Positions 2,659 through 58,570 of a stretch of 64,000 nt of DNA are shown in pieces. A program made the position numbers and the translations under genes. Positions within the stretch are counted from its first letter, which is position 1. The number at the start of each line of letters is the position of its first letter. This stretch comes from an uncultured Acidobacteriaceae bacterium (GTDB lineage Bacteria > Acidobacteriota > Terriglobia > Terriglobales > Acidobacteriaceae). Location: assembly GCA_903828675.1 (NCBI GenBank), contig CAIKND010000182.1:1-64000 (forward strand), read 5' to 3'. The notes under the pieces were generated by a model that saw nothing but the letters and a program-made list of their open reading frames with translations, was not told the origin of the DNA and searched no databases.

Positions 2659-2754
2659 GTGCCCCACCCAAACCGCGCCTTTTGCGATTTGGGTGGGATA
2701 GCAAAACACTCAACCACGCAGCTTTTCTATTCCCTATTCCCTATTCCCTATTCC
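2659..2754. repeat. Composite 3'-end repeat: palindrome plus CTATTCC heptamers
   Basis: The palindromic part runs 2659-2700, with arms CCCACCCAAA and TTTGGGTGGG around the loop. A linker (agcaaaacactcaaccacgc) follows, then four perfect tandem CTATTCC units (2727-2754). The tract enters the 3' end of the symporter gene: its stop codon (TAG, minus strand, 2734-2736) begins one heptamer, and the last residues (GIGNRE) are translated from the repeat. The same palindrome-linker-heptamer order recurs at several other gene ends in the window. Confidence 0.85.
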
Positions 2755-4149
2755 CTGCACGCCTTCCCACTTCGCCACCACCGCCGCCGCCATGCAGTTC
2801 CCCACCACATTCAGCCCCGTCCGCCCCATATCCATCAGCGTGTCCACGCCAAGCAGCATCAGCACGGCAGCCGTGGGAATCTGAAACGACCCGGCCACCC
2901 CCATCAGCACCACCAGCGTTGCGCGCGGCACACCCGCAATGCCCTTGCTTGAAAGGGCAAGCGTGGCCAGCAGCACGATCTGCTGCATTACCGTCAGATG
3001 CAGCCCGCCGGCCTGCGCAGCAAACAGCGCCGCCATGGCGAGATAGAGCGTCGACCCCGTGAGATTGAAGCTATAGCCCATCGGAATCACAAACGACACA
3101 ATCCAGCGCGGCACGCCGAACTCTTCCATGCGTTCCATCGCCAGCGGTAGCGCCGCCTCCGACGAAGTAGTCGCAAACCCAATCGCCGCTGGCTCAGTCA
3201 CAGCCATGGCAAACTTCCACACCGGCACCCGCGCCACCATCAAAATCGGCACAAACACAAACACAACGAAAATCACCAGCGTCCCGTAGCAGGTAGCAGC
3301 CAGCTTCAGCAGCGGCAGCATCGTCGCCAGCCCCATGCTGCCAACGGTATAGGCCAGCGCCGCGCCCGCCGCAACCGGTGCGCAATACATGATGAAGCGC
3401 GTCAGCCGAAACATCGTCTCTGTCAGCGACTGCAGCACGCTCACCAGCGGCGCGCGCTTGGCCTCTGGCAGCGTAGCCAGCGCGGAGCCGAAGAGCAGCG
3501 CAAATACCGCCACTTGCAAAATCTGGTTCTGCGCCACCGCCTGCGCTATGTTCTCCGGGAAGATATTCAGCAGCACACCCTGCCACCCGGCCTGGTGCGC
3601 AATTGGGGCCGCAGCTTGAATCGAAGCAGGCAGCACCACGCCAACTCCAGCTTTCGTCAGATTGATGGCGACCGCGCCCAGAATCAGCCCCAGCGTCGTC
3701 ACCACTTCAAAGAACACGATCGACTTGATGGCGACCCGCCCCACGCCTTTCAATTCGCCATGTCCCGCAATCCCGGTCACGATGCCGCCAAAGATCAGCG
3801 GCGCAACGATCATGCGAATGAGACGTAGAAAGATTTCGGCAATAAAGTGGGTTTGCGTGGCCAACTGTGGCGCATCCACGCCCAGTTCCGCCCCGGCCAA
3901 CATGGCAAAGAAAGTCCACACCAGCAGCGAACGCCGCCGCCATGCAAAGGGAACAAATAGCCCAAAGCCGGTCCAGCGCAGCGCCACGCCGGCTTCCGCG
4001 CGTGTGTTCAACAGCCCGGCAAGCAGGCCGGCCGCAAACAGCAAACCCGCGGCAAATGTCAGAGCGCGCAACAACGCAGCACCGGATCGCGGATCAGGCG
4101 ACTCCGGTTTGCGCTGCAAAGATAGTTCTTGGTTGTTCAAGGCTTCCAT
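2734..4149 (-). CDS. Dicarboxylate/amino acid:cation symporter (DAACS family)
   Basis: This is a glutamate/dicarboxylate:H+ or Na+ symporter-like protein of the inner membrane, 471 residues with many hydrophobic segments. Family landmarks are visible: FATTSSEAALPLAMERM (the serine-rich re-entrant loop region), MGYSFNLTGSTLYLAMA (the position of the usual NMDGT motif) and SSKGIAGVPRATLVVL (second hairpin loop). The NMDGT position reads NLTGS, so the family's cation- and substrate-binding Asp appears to be replaced and substrate preference may differ from GltP or DctA. The N-terminus carries extra hydrophobic segments before the usual TM1. The C-terminal residues and stop come from a heptamer repeat. 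It stands alone, flanked by repeats on its 3' side. Confidence 0.88.
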   Translation of the reverse strand: MEALNNQELSLQRKPESPDPRSGAALLRALTFAAGLLFAAGLLAGLLNTRAEAGVALRWTGFGLFVPFAWRRRSLLVWTFFAMLAGAELGVDAPQLATQTHFIAEIFLRLIRMIVAPLIFGGIVTGIAGHGELKGVGRVAIKSIVFFEVVTTLGLILGAVAINLTKAGVGVVLPASIQAAAPIAHQAGWQGVLLNIFPENIAQAVAQNQILQVAVFALLFGSALATLPEAKRAPLVSVLQSLTETMFRLTRFIMYCAPVAAGAALAYTVGSMGLATMLPLLKLAATCYGTLVIFVVFVFVPILMVARVPVWKFAMAVTEPAAIGFATTSSEAALPLAMERMEEFGVPRWIVSFVIPMGYSFNLTGSTLYLAMAALFAAQAGGLHLTVMQQIVLLATLALSSKGIAGVPRATLVVLMGVAGSFQIPTAAVLMLLGVDTLMDMGRTGLNVVGNCMAAAVVAKWEGVQGIGNRE

Positions 4150-42837: not shown

Positions 42838-44139
42838 TGCGAAATTCTCCAGACTGAATGGTGATACCCTGCAGATTCAAATTGGAGCAAGAAAATCCTG
42901 ACCTCTACGCATATCTTCGCAGTCTGCGCAGAAGAACTCGAAAAGCACTTTGCGAAAGAGGAACTACTCGCAGCAAAAACGCCGAAAGGGAAGCAGTGCT
43001 GGGATTTGCTGTGAAGGTCTAGATCCAATTTGCCAGTCGTCAAGAAAATCTGCACATCTGATTGGTTGCCCCACGGCTTAGAAACGTAACCATGAAAAGG
43101 CCCCACAGGTGCTTTCGGTTGAACTAATGCTTGCCAGAATGCGCGAGGATGTATCAATAGTGGCATCTTCCCGAGCAACCACAGTTGGCGTGCAAGGTAG
43201 CAGGTCGTAACCATAATGCCGAAGAGCACAAACTGAAGTGAGTCGAATACGATCAAGTCTGTCCTATATCTGTCGAGGATAGAGTTGGGGCAGCCGGCAT
43301 CAATTAAGTTGCAATTCATTGCGGTAAGGATCACGAAGCTTATGCGTCGGCGGAGTTTTTCAGATTCACCCGCGACCGAGAAAGACAGACGCAATCGCGC
43401 CGCCCTTCACAGTTTCTCCTAGTCATGGCGATTCTCCGTCGTGGTGCGACACAATCACCCGGAGAACCTTGTACCTGGTGCAAGGCGGCGAAATGGTATG
43501 GGGGAAGGCTGGCATATATCTGGATGGTCTTCCCGGTGATTAGCACCGTACGAGACTCGTAGTATAGCACGGTGGAGGATTCACCTAACTTTATAAGACC
43601 ATTGAAAATGTCCGGGCTAGGTATCGATCTGGGCGGCGTTTAGTGCATATCGAGTGCTATTGCCGGAACCCTTCGGAATCCAGTGAACTCCGGTGGGATA
43701 GTTTCAGTTCCTGAAGCTGAGCACCTTGGTTGGCTGTGGGTGACCGAGGCGCACGATGGCTAGGGACCATGCCCCGAAGTAGACCGTGGCGAAGGTGCAG
43801 CAAAGCGATAGATCACATTCTGTCCGCTAATTGAGTTGACGTGGCTTACCATCGAGCGCCAAAGTCGCGGTGCAGCGCGTAGGTCTGGTCCAGATCACTC
43901 GTACACGTTCCAATCGCTTTGGGAATAGACATCGACCGTCTTAATCGGCCCATTGAGTCTTGATCGTATCGCCTCTGCGCCCGCGAAGAACAACGACCCA
44001 AAAAAGAAGCCGGGCTTTAGCTCCTGCCACATTTCGAACCGCCTGTGGTGCCTTTTTCCACCTGTTCTGTGTCTTGCAAGCTGCTCTTCTTCCAAATCCA
44101 AACGCAAGCTCTTTCGAGTGCGATTCCCCGCCCTTGGTT
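42838..44139. other. 1.3-kb region without a convincing gene
   Basis: This is the largest gene-poor stretch in the window. The track offers a 186-codon minus-strand ORF (42834-43394) with low-complexity Ser/Phe runs, overlapping the start of the O-antigen ligase gene, and a 76-codon ORF. Neither has a ribosome site, a family motif or codon bias like its neighbours. Base composition is lower in GC than the flanks. It may be the remains of decayed genes or a transferred segment. Confidence 0.5.
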
Positions 44140-44156
44140 CTCTATTCTCTATCTCA
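44140..44156. repeat. Heptamer tract at the PAP2 gene end
   Basis: CTCTATT and CTCTATC units lead directly into the stop codon of the PAP2 gene (TCA on +, 44154-44156), which begins the next 7-bp unit. Confidence 0.6.
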
Positions 44157-45346: not shown

Positions 45347-46024
45347 CTAAAGCTCCCCAAAAATATCCCGAAATTCAAACGTCCCCGACTTCCCCGCCAG
45401 CCACTCGGCACCGCGCACCGCGCCCTGCGCAAACCCGCGCCGGCTCGACGCATCGTGCCGCAGTTCCAAGGTGTCGTATTCGCTCTTTGCCGTCACAATA
45501 TGCTCGCCCTTGGCGTCACCCAGCCGATGCGAAGTAATCGGAATCTCGATCCCCGGCCGCACTGCGAGAATAATCTCCTTCAACGTCAGCGCGGTTCCCG
45601 ACGGCGCATCCAGCTTCGACGTGTGGTGCGTCTCATCGATTGAAAAGCTGTAGCCATCCAGTCCCGCCAACTCCGCCGTCAGCCGGAAAAGCTTCTGTAC
45701 GCCGATTGAAAAATTCGTCCCGTACAGCAGCCCGCCGCCACTCCGCGCGGCCAGCGCCTTCATCTCATCCAGATGCGCATACCACCCCGTCGTGCCCACC
45801 ACGATGCGCGACCCAAGCCCCAGCACCGCGCGCATATTTTCCAGCGCCGCCGCAGGAGCGGTAAAGTCCACAACCGCGTCCACGTCCGCCAGGTTCGCCG
45901 CCGTCAGCGCCGACGCATGCTCGTTCTCGAAGATATCGAGCGTCCGCACCTCATGCCCGCGTTCCCGCGCAACATCGGCAACCAGACTCCCCGTCTTCCC
46001 CTTGCCCAGCACTAAAAACTGCAT
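45347..46024 (-). CDS. dapB: 4-hydroxy-tetrahydrodipicolinate reductase
   Basis: DapB reduces hydroxy-tetrahydrodipicolinate with NAD(P)H in the lysine/diaminopimelate pathway. From the ATG at 46024 the protein has 225 residues, shorter than the usual 240-270; the segment after the N-terminal GKGKTG nucleotide motif is condensed. The catalytic block DETHHTSKLDAPSGTALTLKE (His, Lys and the substrate-binding SGT) is intact, as are VVGTTGW and GTNFSIGVQKLF. It follows lysC and asd in the same orientation, giving an asd-lysC-dapB aspartate-family group separated by repeat-filled gaps. Confidence 0.93.
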   Translation of the reverse strand: MQFLVLGKGKTGSLVADVARERGHEVRTLDIFENEHASALTAANLADVDAVVDFTAPAAALENMRAVLGLGSRIVVGTTGWYAHLDEMKALAARSGGGLLYGTNFSIGVQKLFRLTAELAGLDGYSFSIDETHHTSKLDAPSGTALTLKEIILAVRPGIEIPITSHRLGDAKGEHIVTAKSEYDTLELRHDASSRRGFAQGAVRGAEWLAGKSGTFEFRDIFGEL

Positions 46025-46044
46025 TTCCAATGACCCTCTGTTTA

Positions 46045-46132
46045 AGTCGGTGCTTTGAAAGGGCACGACTTCAGTCGTGCCGCAAATGCTGCAAAATGAA
46101 TGAGGGCTTCAGCCCCTGAGGGAATGCTCGGC
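46045..46132. repeat. Double-hairpin repeat (copy 1)
   Basis: GGCACGACT-TCA-GTCGTGCC, a spacer CGCAAATGCTGCAAAATGAATG, then GGGCT-TCA-GCCC. The same two-hairpin element recurs at 54191-54262, with partial forms at 51462-51530 and 54061-54155. Confidence 0.8.
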
Positions 46133-46163
46133 GTGGAATAAGACCAAATCAGATGTTTCCTAA

Positions 46164-46187
46164 AGCTCCAAGCTTCTAGCTTCAAGC
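46164..46187. repeat. AGCTTCA-type heptamer tract
   Basis: AGCTCCA, AGCTTCT, AGCTTCA and AGC in tandem: the same 7-bp period as the CTATTCC and CTGTCCA tracts but a different unit, about 75 bp beyond the lysC stop. Confidence 0.6.
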
Positions 46188-46257: not shown

Positions 46258-46290
46258 ACTGTTCACTGTGCACTGTCCACTGCCAACTGC
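46258..46290. repeat. Heptamer tract encoding the LysC C-terminus and stop
   Basis: ACTGTTC, ACTGTGC, ACTGTCC, ACTGCCA and ACTGC in tandem. Read on the minus strand, it encodes the final residues QLAVDSAQ and the TGA stop (46263-46265) of lysC. Confidence 0.8.
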
Positions 46291-47690
46291 TTCCTCGCTT
46301 CCACGTCGAAGATCGCCGGATCGGGCTCCTTGAAAAACGCCGCATGCAGTGACCGCACCGCCTCTTCCGCGTCGTCCTCTTCGATCATGAAGCTCATGTT
46401 GATTTCGCTCGCACCCTGCGAAATCATGCGCACATTCACGTGCCGCACGGCGTTGAACACCTGCGCGGCAATCCCGTGCTGTCCGCGGATATCTTCGCCC
46501 ACCATGCACACAAGCGCCTTCTTGCCCTCGTACTTCACGTCCGCCAGCTTGCCCAGATCCGCCGCGATGGCCGGCAGCTTGTCCGTCGAGTCCACGGTCA
46601 GGGACACGCTCACCTCTGAAGTCGAAACCATGTCCACCGGGCATTGGTGCTTGTCGAAAATCGCGAAGATTTGGCTCAGGTACCCGTGCGTCATCAGCAT
46701 GCGGCTCGCCACCACGTCGATGATGCTCAACTTCTTCTTTACTGAGATCGACTTGAACGGGCTCTTGCAGTGAGGGGCCAATGAAATGATCCGCGTCCCC
46801 TCGTTGCTCGCATTGCGGCTGTTCAGCACCAGTACCGGAATGTTCTTCTTCACGGCCGGCAAAATTGTCGCTGGGTGCAGTACCTTGGCCCCGAAGTAGG
46901 CCAATTCCGCCGCCTCTTCAAAGCTGATCACCTTCACCCGCAGCGCATCCGGACATACCCGCGGATCGGCCGTCATAATGCCGTCCACGTCCGTCCAGAT
47001 CTCGATCGCTTCGGCCGTCAGCGCCCCACCGATCAGTGCCCCCGTAAAGTCCGACCCCCCGCGCCCTAGCGTGGTCGTGATTCCGGCCTCGTTCGACGCG
47101 ATAAACCCGCCCATCACCGGCACCTTGCCCTGCGCCGCCAGAGGAAGCAGCTTCTCCTGGGCGCGCTTTTCGATCAGGTCGTCCTGCGGAATCGCCTTCT
47201 GGAACTGCGAGTCGGTAATGATAATGTCGCGCGCGTCCACGTGGACGCCCTCCATGCCTAACTCGCGAAACGCCTGGGCGACGATGCGGCTCGATACCCG
47301 CTCGCCATAACTCACAATCAGGTCGGAGATGCGCGGAGTCAGCTCCAGAATCGCCGCCAGCCCGCGCAGTACCTCATCCAGAGAATCGAATTTCTGGTCG
47401 ATGAAGTCCAGCAGAGCGGCGATATCGGAGGTATTCTTCACCAGCGCAATCGCCGTGTCCCGATGCCGTGCCCGCAGCCGCGAACTAATCGCCAGCGCGC
47501 CCGTCCGGTCCCCGACTGAGGCCGCGCCCGCAGCCCGCAGCAACTGGTCGGTCACCTTGGCCATGGCGCTCACCACCACCACCGGGCTCTTGCCCTGCGC
47601 CACACGCCCGGCCACAATCGCCGCAGTACGCCCAATCGCCGCCGGATCCTCCACCGACGTCCCGCCAAACTTCATCACTACCAGGTTCAT
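46263..47690 (-). CDS. lysC: Aspartate kinase
   Basis: This enzyme phosphorylates aspartate, the committed step toward lysine, threonine and methionine. The 475-residue protein is the monofunctional long form: VMKFGGTSVEDPAAI, GERVSSRIVAQAFRE, TTLGRGGSDFTGALIGGALTAEAIEIWTDVDGIMTADPRV and EAAELAYFGAKVLHPATILPA. Two ACT regulatory domains follow (from about residue 320: LSIIDVVASRMLMTHGYLSQIF and KKALVCMVGEDIRGQHGIAAQVF), implying feedback inhibition. The last residues and stop derive from a heptamer repeat. It lies between asd and dapB. Confidence 0.96.
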   Translation of the reverse strand: MNLVVMKFGGTSVEDPAAIGRTAAIVAGRVAQGKSPVVVVSAMAKVTDQLLRAAGAASVGDRTGALAISSRLRARHRDTAIALVKNTSDIAALLDFIDQKFDSLDEVLRGLAAILELTPRISDLIVSYGERVSSRIVAQAFRELGMEGVHVDARDIIITDSQFQKAIPQDDLIEKRAQEKLLPLAAQGKVPVMGGFIASNEAGITTTLGRGGSDFTGALIGGALTAEAIEIWTDVDGIMTADPRVCPDALRVKVISFEEAAELAYFGAKVLHPATILPAVKKNIPVLVLNSRNASNEGTRIISLAPHCKSPFKSISVKKKLSIIDVVASRMLMTHGYLSQIFAIFDKHQCPVDMVSTSEVSVSLTVDSTDKLPAIAADLGKLADVKYEGKKALVCMVGEDIRGQHGIAAQVFNAVRHVNVRMISQGASEINMSFMIEEDDAEEAVRSLHAAFFKEPDPAIFDVEARKQLAVDSAQ

Positions 47691-47810: not shown

Positions 47811-47901
47811 GTGCCCCATCTTTGCGATTTTTCTCTATCGCAAGGGTGGGAAAGCATAAAGGCAACCCCGCGCTTTTCTATTCCCTGTTCCCTGCTCTCT
47901 A
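47811..47901. repeat. Composite repeat at the asd gene end
   Basis: Palindrome GTGCCCCATCTTTGCGA...TCGCAAGGGTGGGA, then the linker aagcataaaggcaaccccgcgctttt, then CTATTCC, CTGTTCC, CTGCTCT and CTA. The final CTA is the complement of the asd TAG stop. Confidence 0.8.
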
Positions 47902-50877: not shown

Positions 50878-50901
50878 CTATTCCCTAGTCCCTATATCTC
50901 A
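50878..50901. repeat. Heptamer tract at the nrdR gene end
   Basis: CTATTCC, CTAGTCC, CTATATC and TCA: three 7-bp units ending exactly at the nrdR stop codon (TGA on the minus strand, 50899-50901). Confidence 0.75.
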
Positions 50902-52943: not shown

Positions 52944-53040
52944 GTGCCCCATCCATTAGCCTTCTTCCTGGCGAATGGGTGGGAAGGCATGAACCGCGCC
53001 CTCGCAGCTTTTCCTGTTCACTGCCCACTGTCCACTGCCG
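52944..53040. repeat. Composite repeat at the aldo/keto reductase gene end
   Basis: Palindrome CCCATCCATTAGCC/GGCGAATGGGTGGG (52944-52984), the linker aaggcatgaaccgcgccctcgcagctttt, then CTGTTCA, CTGCCCA, CTGTCCA, CTGCCG (53014-53040). The tract ends at the complement of the TAA stop codon (53041-53043). Confidence 0.82.
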
Positions 53041-54290: not shown

Positions 54291-54358
54291 GTGCCCCTGG
54301 TCTCGCTATTGAGACCTGGGAAATCAACAGCTGTTCACTGTCCATTGTTCACTTTTCA
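54291..54358. repeat. CCAGGTCTC-type hairpin plus heptamers at a permease gene end
   Basis: GTGCCCCTGGTCTC-GCTATT-GAGACCTGGG (one arm mismatch), then CTGTTCA, CTGTCCA, TTGTTCA, CTTTTCA (54331-54358). The final TCA is the complement of the permease TGA stop. Here the heptamers follow a different palindrome family that begins with the same GTGCCCC. Confidence 0.75.
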
Positions 54359-55594
54359 CTCGTACCGCAGCGCCTCAATCGGGTCCAGGTTCGCCGCGCG
54401 TATCGCCGGAATCATCCCGCTCACCAGCCCGGTTATAGCGAGAATCACCGTTGCCACAATCACCGAAGTTGGCGAAATCAGCAGTTGTATATCCGCGTCC
54501 GACGCATTCTTGGCCAGCGCGCTATAAAAAGGAATGCGCCCCACCAGCGCGGAGATCACGTACGCCAACGAGATTCCGCACACCCCGCCAACCCCTGTTA
54601 TCGCCATCGCTTCGGCCAGAAACTGCAACAGGATATGGTGTCTCTGCGCGCCCAGCGCCTTCTCTATGCCGATCTCTCGCGTGCGCTGCTGCACCGCCAC
54701 CAGCATGATGTTCATCAGCCCAATGCCCGCAATCCCCAGCGTCAGCGCGCCCACCAGAGACAGCAGGACCTGGAGTGCGATGGAGACGATGCTGAATTGA
54801 TGAAGTTGGGATTGCAGGTTGGCCACAAAGATGGCGCGATGGTCGGAGGGACGGAAATGATGGGCTGCGCCGAGCGTATTTCGGAGGTCTTTCTCAATGA
54901 CTTCGTTATCGCCGCGATAGTTGAACCAGATACCGTCCAGGTACGTTGTGTCCCTGAGATCGCCCATGGTCGAGAACGGTATCCAAATCGAGGTGTTGAT
55001 GTTGTTTTCGCCTTCGACCATCTTGGGGCGCAGAACTCCTACCACGGTAAACATGATTCCGTTGATACGAATGGACTCTCCAATCGCATAGCCACCAGAG
55101 AAGAGCTTGGTTTTGGCTTCACTCCCAATGACGCAGACGTGGGCTCGCTGCCGCTCTTCCTGTCCGTTGTACAGGCGGCCTTCGACCGGGTCGAGGACGA
55201 GGATATCCAAGCCTTCAGGGCGCACACCGTTCACCGACCACGTGTAGGAGTGGAGGTCGTTCTGGATAGTTGAGTCCCGAAACATGACGGGGCTGATCGA
55301 GGAAATGCCGGGGAGCGAATTCCAGATGCGATCGACATCATCGTACGTCAGGCGCACGCGAACTCCGGCTTTGTCAGCGCCGGCCTGCTCGGAAGTGCGA
55401 CCGCCGTACACTTCCATGTGGTTGACGCCCCACTGGGCAAAGATGCTCTCGATGGCGCGCGAGAAACCCGCACCATACGCCAGCAGCAACACGACCGTGG
55501 CAATGCCCCAGGCCATGCCGATCATGGTGATGGCTGTGCGCCGGCGGTTGTATATCATCGCCTCCCAGGCCTGGCCGAGAATGTCTCTCAACAT
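54356..55594 (-). CDS. MacB-like ABC transporter permease (second gene)
   Basis: A 412-residue FtsX/MacB-type permease: an N-terminal transmembrane helix (TAITMIGMAWGIATVVLLLAYGAGF), a large periplasmic MacB_PCD domain, and three C-terminal helices around VGALTLGIAGIGLMNIMLVAVQQRTREIGIEKALGAQRHHIL, ending DPIEALRYE, the family's C-terminal signature. No ATPase domain is fused and none adjoins it. It starts 83 bp after the first permease and should form a heterodimer with it or act as an alternative partner. Confidence 0.9.
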   Translation of the reverse strand: MLRDILGQAWEAMIYNRRRTAITMIGMAWGIATVVLLLAYGAGFSRAIESIFAQWGVNHMEVYGGRTSEQAGADKAGVRVRLTYDDVDRIWNSLPGISSISPVMFRDSTIQNDLHSYTWSVNGVRPEGLDILVLDPVEGRLYNGQEERQRAHVCVIGSEAKTKLFSGGYAIGESIRINGIMFTVVGVLRPKMVEGENNINTSIWIPFSTMGDLRDTTYLDGIWFNYRGDNEVIEKDLRNTLGAAHHFRPSDHRAIFVANLQSQLHQFSIVSIALQVLLSLVGALTLGIAGIGLMNIMLVAVQQRTREIGIEKALGAQRHHILLQFLAEAMAITGVGGVCGISLAYVISALVGRIPFYSALAKNASDADIQLLISPTSVIVATVILAITGLVSGMIPAIRAANLDPIEALRYE

Positions 55595-58361: not shown

Positions 58362-58362
58362 G

Positions 58363-58434
58363 AGAGCAGTTGTCAGTGGTCAGTGAACAGCCGGGTGCCC
58401 CATCCTCGCCACGCTTTTGTGGCTAGGGTGGGGA
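58363..58434. repeat. Heptamer tract plus palindrome after the adaptor gene
   Basis: AGAGCAG, TTGTCAG, TGGTCAG, TGAACAG (58363-58390) begin 2 nt after the TAA stop of this plus-strand gene. The palindrome GTGCCCCATCCTCGCCAC...GTGGCTAGGGTGGGG (58395-58434) follows. The order stop-heptamer-palindrome mirrors the minus-strand genes. Confidence 0.8.
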
Positions 58435-58479
58435 AGCATGAACCCCAATCTCAAAACTGAACCTCGCGACCAAAGCCCC

Positions 58480-58570
58480 GTGCCCCATCCATTCCGCGCC
58501 TTTTGCGGAATGGGTGGGACAGCAAAACACTCAACCGGGTTGGTCTTTCACTGTCCACTGCCCACTGTCG
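58480..58570. repeat. Composite repeat at the ABC ATPase gene end
   Basis: Palindrome CCCATCCATTCCGCG/TGCGGAATGGGTGGG (58480-58520), the linker agcaaaacactcaaccgggttggt, then CTTTCA, CTGTCCA, CTGCCCA, CTGTCG leading into the TCA complement of the stop codon (58571-58573). The linker is nearly identical to that at 2701. Confidence 0.85.

Follow-up and report, generated by a model that had tools for sequence, protein, structure and literature searches.

Seven-base tandem repeats at gene ends of an Acidobacteriaceae genome: placement, polarity and possible hairpins at gene junctions

The aspartate kinase gene lysC of an uncultured Acidobacteriaceae bacterium ends within a tandem repeat of seven bases, from which it takes its stop codon and its last residues. 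Are such repeats kept at gene ends because they stop translation, or do they stand there for another reason? The locus lies in a stretch of 64,000 nucleotides (hereafter the window), which is contig C182 of a genome of 6.39 Mb in 241 contigs. A first-pass annotation had described heptamer tracts at the stop codons of at least nine genes in this window, and had proposed that they could act as all-frame translation stoppers or change gene ends by gaining and losing units. The tracts, together with lysC and its neighbor dapB, are listed below.

2727 to 2756, minus strand: perfect GGGAATA heptad tract of 4.3 copies, from which the symporter takes its end GIGNRE and its TAG stop.
44138 to 44152, minus strand: two-unit tract, 1 nt past the PAP2 stop.
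45347 to 46024, minus strand: dapB, downstream of lysC (Pfam DapB_N, DapB_C).
46163 to 46187, minus strand: second heptad tract, in the lysC-dapB gap, of the AGCTTNN type, which differs from the type of the lysC-end tract.
46258 to 46290, minus strand: CAGTGNN-type heptad tract of about 4.5 units through the lysC end; supplies AVDSAQ, the final residues, together with the TGA stop.
46263 to 47690, minus strand: lysC, aspartate kinase (Pfam AA_kinase, ACT).
47881 to 47894, minus strand: weak tract, CAGGGAA twice, past the asd stop (score 7, under the cut of 8).
50878 to 50894, minus strand: weak tract, TAGGGAC/TAGGGAA, past the nrdR stop (score 7, under the cut of 8).
53019 to 53037, minus strand: CAGTGGN tract, 3 nt past the aldo/keto reductase stop.
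54331 to 54360, minus strand: imperfect tract over the stop of the MacB-like permease.
58367 to 58385, plus strand: 5-prime arm of the CAGTNNN type, 5 nt past the stop of the HlyD-like adaptor.
58549 to 58567, minus strand: matching arm, 3 nt past the convergent ABC ATPase stop; pairs with 58367 to 58385.

The gene names given in the first-pass annotation agreed with Pfam (SDF symporter, PAP2, LysC, Asd, NrdR, aldo/keto reductase, MacB-like permease, HlyD-like adaptor and ABC ATPase). Its claim that tracts touch all nine stop codons held for three genes, the symporter, lysC and the MacB-like permease, where the tract overlaps the stop. In four others, the tract begins 1 to 5 nt past the stop (PAP2, 1 nt; aldo/keto reductase and ABC ATPase, 3 nt each; adaptor, 5 nt, where 2 nt had been stated), and the two tracts at asd and nrdR are short and fall under the cut. 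The description of a translated tract that includes the stop was correct for both LysC (QLAVDSAQ and TGA) and the symporter (GIGNRE and TAG). The two arms between the adaptor and the ABC ATPase form the outer stem of this convergent gap, with a fold z of -6.4.

Palindromes of other kinds also occur in the window. Those of the GGCACGACTTCAGTCGTGCC and GGGGCTTCAGCCCC kinds lie at positions 46040 to 46160 of the lysC-dapB gap, and the forms searched have 5 and 4 copies, respectively, in 1.45 Mb. Another family of palindromes between genes, GTGCCCCATCC...GGGTGGG, was seen at positions 58362 to 58570, in the lysC-dapB gaps of two relatives (L046 and L093) and in the sample of the own genome. GTGCCCCATCC has 60 exact copies, counting both strands, in 1.45 Mb, and is REP-like.

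Runs were scored with +1 for each match at lag 7 and -2 for each mismatch, and a score of at least 9 was taken for the tract count of the window. Eight period-7 tracts were counted, whereas 100 simulated windows that kept the dinucleotide steps (first-order Markov) had a mean of 0.44 and a maximum of 3. With the same cut applied to periods 4 to 24 of the window, periods that are not multiples of 7 gave 0 to 3 tracts, period 14 gave 2 and period 21 gave 6. A wider sample of 1,460,953 bases was taken from the same genome; it consists mostly of pattern-bearing contigs, with 20 further contigs at mostly round numbers, and omits L144 (700 bases) and L001-L005. This sample of 1.46 Mb contained 60 period-7 tracts, as compared with 9 to 23 for periods 4, 5, 8, 10, 11 and 13. 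Tandem units of 7 bases thus exceed other unit lengths, as in the STRR repeats. Since the sample was drawn mostly from pattern-bearing contigs, the tract density may be inflated; the tests of position should be unaffected.

The tracts are found mainly between genes, again as in STRR: 49 of the 60 in the 1.46 Mb touch non-coding DNA. Within 20 bp of a stop codon were 24 of these 49, whereas 1000 random placements gave 5.4 (sd 2.2, maximum 14). The enrichment near stops on which the first-pass annotation had staked its proposal is therefore present in this sample. The genes were called by our own script from codon bias and stop positions, and the start positions are uncertain. An analysis of lag-7 matching, which uses no tract threshold, was performed on a subset of 864 kb. 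The match at 0 to 15 nt past stops was 0.294 at lag 7 and 0.258 (sd 0.005) at lags that are not multiples of 7; matching at lags 14 and 21 was weaker than at lag 7. By gap type, tracts were detected in 136 of 1028 tandem gaps, 22 of 213 convergent gaps and 12 of 260 divergent gaps, so that they are rarer in the divergent ones. They edge start codons as well as stops, and their outward polarity is alike at both.

This polarity was analyzed for 239 tracts lying within 60 nt of an ORF edge, taken from the own genome, the loci of 80 relatives, and G305, G063 and G327. Outward from the ORF edge the units carry AG in phase (CAG, TAG or GAG followed by four bases), and toward the next start they read CTG or CTA. 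Among the 239 tracts, 121 had AG outward, 22 had CT, 73 had both and 23 had neither. The ratio of AG to CT, from which the 73 and the 23 are omitted, was 20:3 at convergent stops, 9:0 at divergent starts, 39:6 at tandem starts and 53:13 at tandem stops. The pooled P is about 1e-17, with the reservation that the two arms of one gap are not independent. A general purine polarity was considered and rejected: the outward purine fraction is just 0.49 to 0.63 by edge class, and thus the polarity belongs to the AG motif. In sum, the repeats stand on the sense strand past stops and on the antisense strand before starts and avoid divergent gaps, which is the placement rule of Rehm et al. 2015.

The starts, which have no need of a stop codon, provide a control for the proposed stopping of translation. 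At stops, 42 of 92 consensus units stop all three frames, and so do 32 of 70 at starts when read in the outward direction (Fisher P = 1). Because all-frame-stop units are no commoner at stops than at starts, the tracts were not selected as translation stoppers, and on this control the supply of stop codons was rejected as the selected function. Furthermore, stop-side units such as CAGTGGA, CAGTTCA and CAGCTTC have no stop in any frame. Of the 92 stop-side tracts, a count that reaches no further than 10 nt into the gene, 77 start past the stop codon and only 15 start within or ahead of it. Tracts that start past the stop did not extend into it, with the extended unit matching over the stop codon at 0.277, which is about chance.

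To what degree, then, do the repeats write gene ends? LysC proteins of relatives were compared by using the best 80 of 312 matching stretches, all from Acidobacteria by their titles, the top one being 90% identical; these matches put the window in the Acidobacteriaceae. The window lysC was taken together with 79 relative loci; the remaining one, L084, was left out of the count of ends because it runs off its contig. After a conserved FDVEARK, the LysC tail follows the repeat type. The stop was TAG in 11 of 12 genes with AGCT-type tails (for example AAVSS and ASSS) and TGA in 10 of 17 with CAGTG-type tails (for example VNSGQ and VDSAQ). The three AGTT-type tails had two TAG and one TAA, and the 48 loci with no tract had 18 TAG, 12 TGA and 18 TAA. 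For stop codon against repeat type, the Fisher P values were 0.0009 and 0.017, uncorrected for relatedness. These results show that the type of a repeat can determine the last residues of a core enzyme.

Change in unit number was seen in the two closest species pairs, which differ by about whole units. Between L084 and L087, the alignment gaps in the two arms of one gap are exactly 7 and 14, and between L052 and L053 there is an alignment difference of 20 nt past lysC, which by eye is about three units. When all aligned orthologous gaps are taken together, lengths in multiples of 7 show no excess, with 338 of 4076 where tracts are present and 275 of 3506 where they are absent. Most of these orthologous pairs are too diverged to align well, and the signal comes from the closest pairs only. 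Among the pieces of G327 and G328 that were compared, no overlapping orthologous stretch was found. At the lysC-dapB junction, some relatives have 2 to 20 nt between the genes and others 60 to 676 nt, often filled with repeats; the length of this gap itself turns over fast.

At many gene junctions, an AG tract stands just past the upstream stop and an inverted CT tract stands just before the downstream start or ribosome-binding region. We compared the match of the two arms of one gap with that of arms swapped between gaps. For 22 junctions of one genome, the scores were 11.6 for same-gap arms and 8.6 for swapped arms (3 of 5000 permutations), and for 38 junctions of relatives they were 13.0 and 8.7 (0 of 5000). 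The comparison was also made at a single orthologous junction. In the 18 lysC-dapB gaps with tracts, the arms matched at 13.2 with their own partner and at 9.0 when swapped (0 of 10000), even as the unit type has changed repeatedly among the relatives (AGCT, CAGTG, AGTTC, CAGCAAA, CAGTTAT). The arms were matched, at 7.6 against 6.1, also in the lysC-dapB gaps counted as tract-free.

Among 120 tract-bearing tandem gaps, 42 had a strong stem (score of at least 12) and 78 did not; single arms are common. In the gaps with such a stem, 85 to 304 nt long, the stem foot has a median distance of 4.5 nt from the preceding stop and of 16 nt from the following start. Convergent gaps had a strong stem in 8 of 21 cases, about 5 nt from both stops, and divergent gaps in 2 of 13. 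The mean fold z was -4.3 for the strong tandem stems, whereas it was -1.3 for 100 tract-free gaps. The mismatches in the stems comprised 50 G-U and 43 A-C pairs (P = 0.53), with no excess of G-U on the sense strand. Since the stem mismatches carry no bias toward the RNA strand, selection on an RNA hairpin is not established.

The ATP synthase operon (L034-L035, on contig C97 of G000, at about 18.4 to 25.1 kb) gives a further example. Three of its gaps (delta-alpha, alpha-gamma and beta-epsilon) form heptad hairpins whose unit types differ, and no heptad hairpin was found in its gamma-beta gap. Relatives often have the lysC-dapB junction at 2 to 20 nt with no repeat, and thus the hairpin is not required at such junctions. 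The lysC-dapB and atp junctions represent hairpin sequence exchanged at a fixed place, which makes the role of the hairpin directly testable there.

The repeats are not confined to this genome. Arrays of four ACTG-phase units were found, once or more, in 86 of 297 genomes of the phylum, with a very uneven distribution. A genome of another family (G063) had 55 period-7 tracts in 177 kb, against 0 to 5 for other periods; AGGACTG and AGGGTTC are among the units at its stops. In G172, 6 tracts were counted in 59.5 kb, a sample that is too small. Very long heptad arrays were also observed at stops of G063 (L186-L195), for example AGGGTTC repeated well over 15 times, a unit close to the plant telomere heptamer.

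We consider it somewhat more probable than not that the tracts are repeats grown by slippage and retained as hairpins at gene junctions. The repeats would lengthen when strands slip or misalign by about 7 bases; arms that gain or lose units in steps of seven were observed in the few close pairs only. The second arm may be kept matched by selection for the hairpin, or may be copied from the first arm via template switching. The hairpin would act where two genes of a polycistronic transcript meet, and there it may protect the end of the upstream message, limit read-through, or bring the stop close to the next ribosome-binding site. The supply of stop codons and C-terminal residues would then be a side effect at those places where a tract ran into a gene end. 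The geometry favors a hairpin in the transcript; a purely DNA-level origin by slippage and template switching is also possible. CTG is the start site of the E. coli primase. A far bolder and improbable extension is that one 7-base writing process, common to Acidobacteriota, cyanobacteria, Xanthomonas and Beggiatoaceae, builds junction hairpins with fixed polarity (AG out, CT(G/A) in), possibly linked to a replication enzyme with a start or slip site at CTG or CTA, and in doing so rewrites stops and C-termini and staples the stop to the next ribosome-binding site.

Could the same repeats be a neutral by-product? The polymerase would slip in 7-base steps, the repeats would persist where they harm no coding sequence, promoter or ribosome-binding site, and the hairpins would come from template switching and have no function. 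This explanation is possible, if on the unlikely side. It is consistent with the excess of period 7 alone, with the range from 1 to 354 matches of one pattern among genomes of the same genus, with stems that have no G-U excess and with the polymerase-footprint idea, which PMC4692102 and PMC4679880 report second-hand. However, slippage alone leaves two results unexplained, namely the outward AG polarity, seen at edges of all kinds, and the better match of arms from the same junction than of swapped arms. All-frame stoppers, or contingency switches of gene ends, would account for the stop codons and C-termini that LysC and the symporter take from the tract, and for LysC tails that vary with repeat type among relatives; TAACTGA repeats, according to MacGregor 2015 (PMC4679880), stop all frames and overlap stop codons. 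Yet the equal frequency of all-frame-stop units at starts and stops, the many units with no stop at all and the stop-side tracts that begin past the stop make this reading very unlikely. A G-quadruplex element, as proposed for the GGGNATC heptamers of Xanthomonas and Nostoc, would suit the GGGAATA and GGGAACA units present here and a strand preference that is the same as in Rehm et al. 2015 (PMC4692102). Four GGG runs, however, occur in just 6 of 50 intergenic tracts, and thus quadruplexes are not the general cause; four GG runs occur in 19 of 50, and the CAGTTCA, CAGCTTC and AGCT types keep position and polarity with no G runs, so that we regard this proposal as doubtful in the extreme.

The fixed polarity and the edge position would also be expected of predicted DNA or RNA sites for a protein of the S1, Csp or CsrA kind, with the hairpins secondary, and PMC4679880 proposes that a post-transcriptional regulator acts on the TAACTGA repeats. 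A single sequence reader nevertheless fits poorly with units that vary among junctions and species and share only AG in phase, and we hold such sites to be unlikely. REP-like palindromes mobilized by a Y1 (RAYT) transposase are the least credible source. The palindromes do stand in gaps adjoining genes, and Y1_Tnp genes are present in 189 of 297 genomes of the phylum, five of them in this genome. But the heptad-rich G116, G261 and G142 (146, 46 and 42 pattern matches) are absent among the 189, and the unit sequence differs between junctions of one genome. This candidate was rejected, there being neither a conserved palindrome sequence nor a dependence on the Y1_Tnp gene. Heptamer repeats of unrelated phyla have variously been explained by G-quadruplexes, protein sites and slippage. 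Position and polarity hold here even though most units are free of G runs and many have no stop; therefore, quadruplex and stopper are weakened, and hairpin and slippage are left.

The repeats of this genome belong to a kind that is already known, the heptamer or STRR repeats of cyanobacteria, Xanthomonas and Beggiatoaceae; here they stand in Acidobacteriota, with varied and mostly non-G-rich units. Among the papers listed in a literature search, judged by titles and abstract openings, none was seen to describe heptamer repeats in Acidobacteria, and the variant with the paired, polarised layout did not turn up there. REP and BIME elements are intergenic palindromes just past genes, and each REP family has one conserved sequence. 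The tracts resemble them as intergenic palindromes just past genes; unlike them, the tracts share only the 7-base period and AG in phase.

The TAACTGA direct repeats are reported by MacGregor 2015 (PMC4679880) from marine Beggiatoaceae, some cyanobacteria and Bacteroidetes. Most stand upstream of starts in the CTG orientation, and some overlap the upstream stop codon. According to the same paper, they have one fixed unit, related heptamers being rare as repeats, and inverted pairs occur in 1 of 170 sets. In contrast, many units in one genome and many inverted pairs were found here, and a fixed unit was not.

The Xanthomonas and Nostoc heptamers, GGGNATC (GGGAATC) and GGGGA(C/T)T, are described by Rehm et al. 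2015 (PMC4692102) as intergenic repeats of few copies, mostly between genes of the same direction, within 50 bp of a stop on the sense strand or of a start on the antisense strand. Some form inverted pairs in Xanthomonas, some overlap stop codons, their length varies between species, and a G-quadruplex is proposed. The present tracts are alike in the 7-base units, the intergenic placement, the strand preference, and the inverted pairs and stop overlap of some members. They differ in having many unit types per genome, mostly not G-rich, in paired arms that match by type, and in lacking a general G-quadruplex capacity.

PMC4692102 also cites heptanucleotides of Calothrix, and a paper on the Nostoc hydrogenase (PMC2670836) suggests for STRR hairpins a possible role in transcript stability or in the coupling of translation. 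The STRR of heterocyst-forming cyanobacteria are like the present tracts in being hairpin-capable 7-bp repeats between genes. The present tracts differ from them in belonging to another phylum, and in the polarity rule and the arm-swap test that extend here across many junctions.
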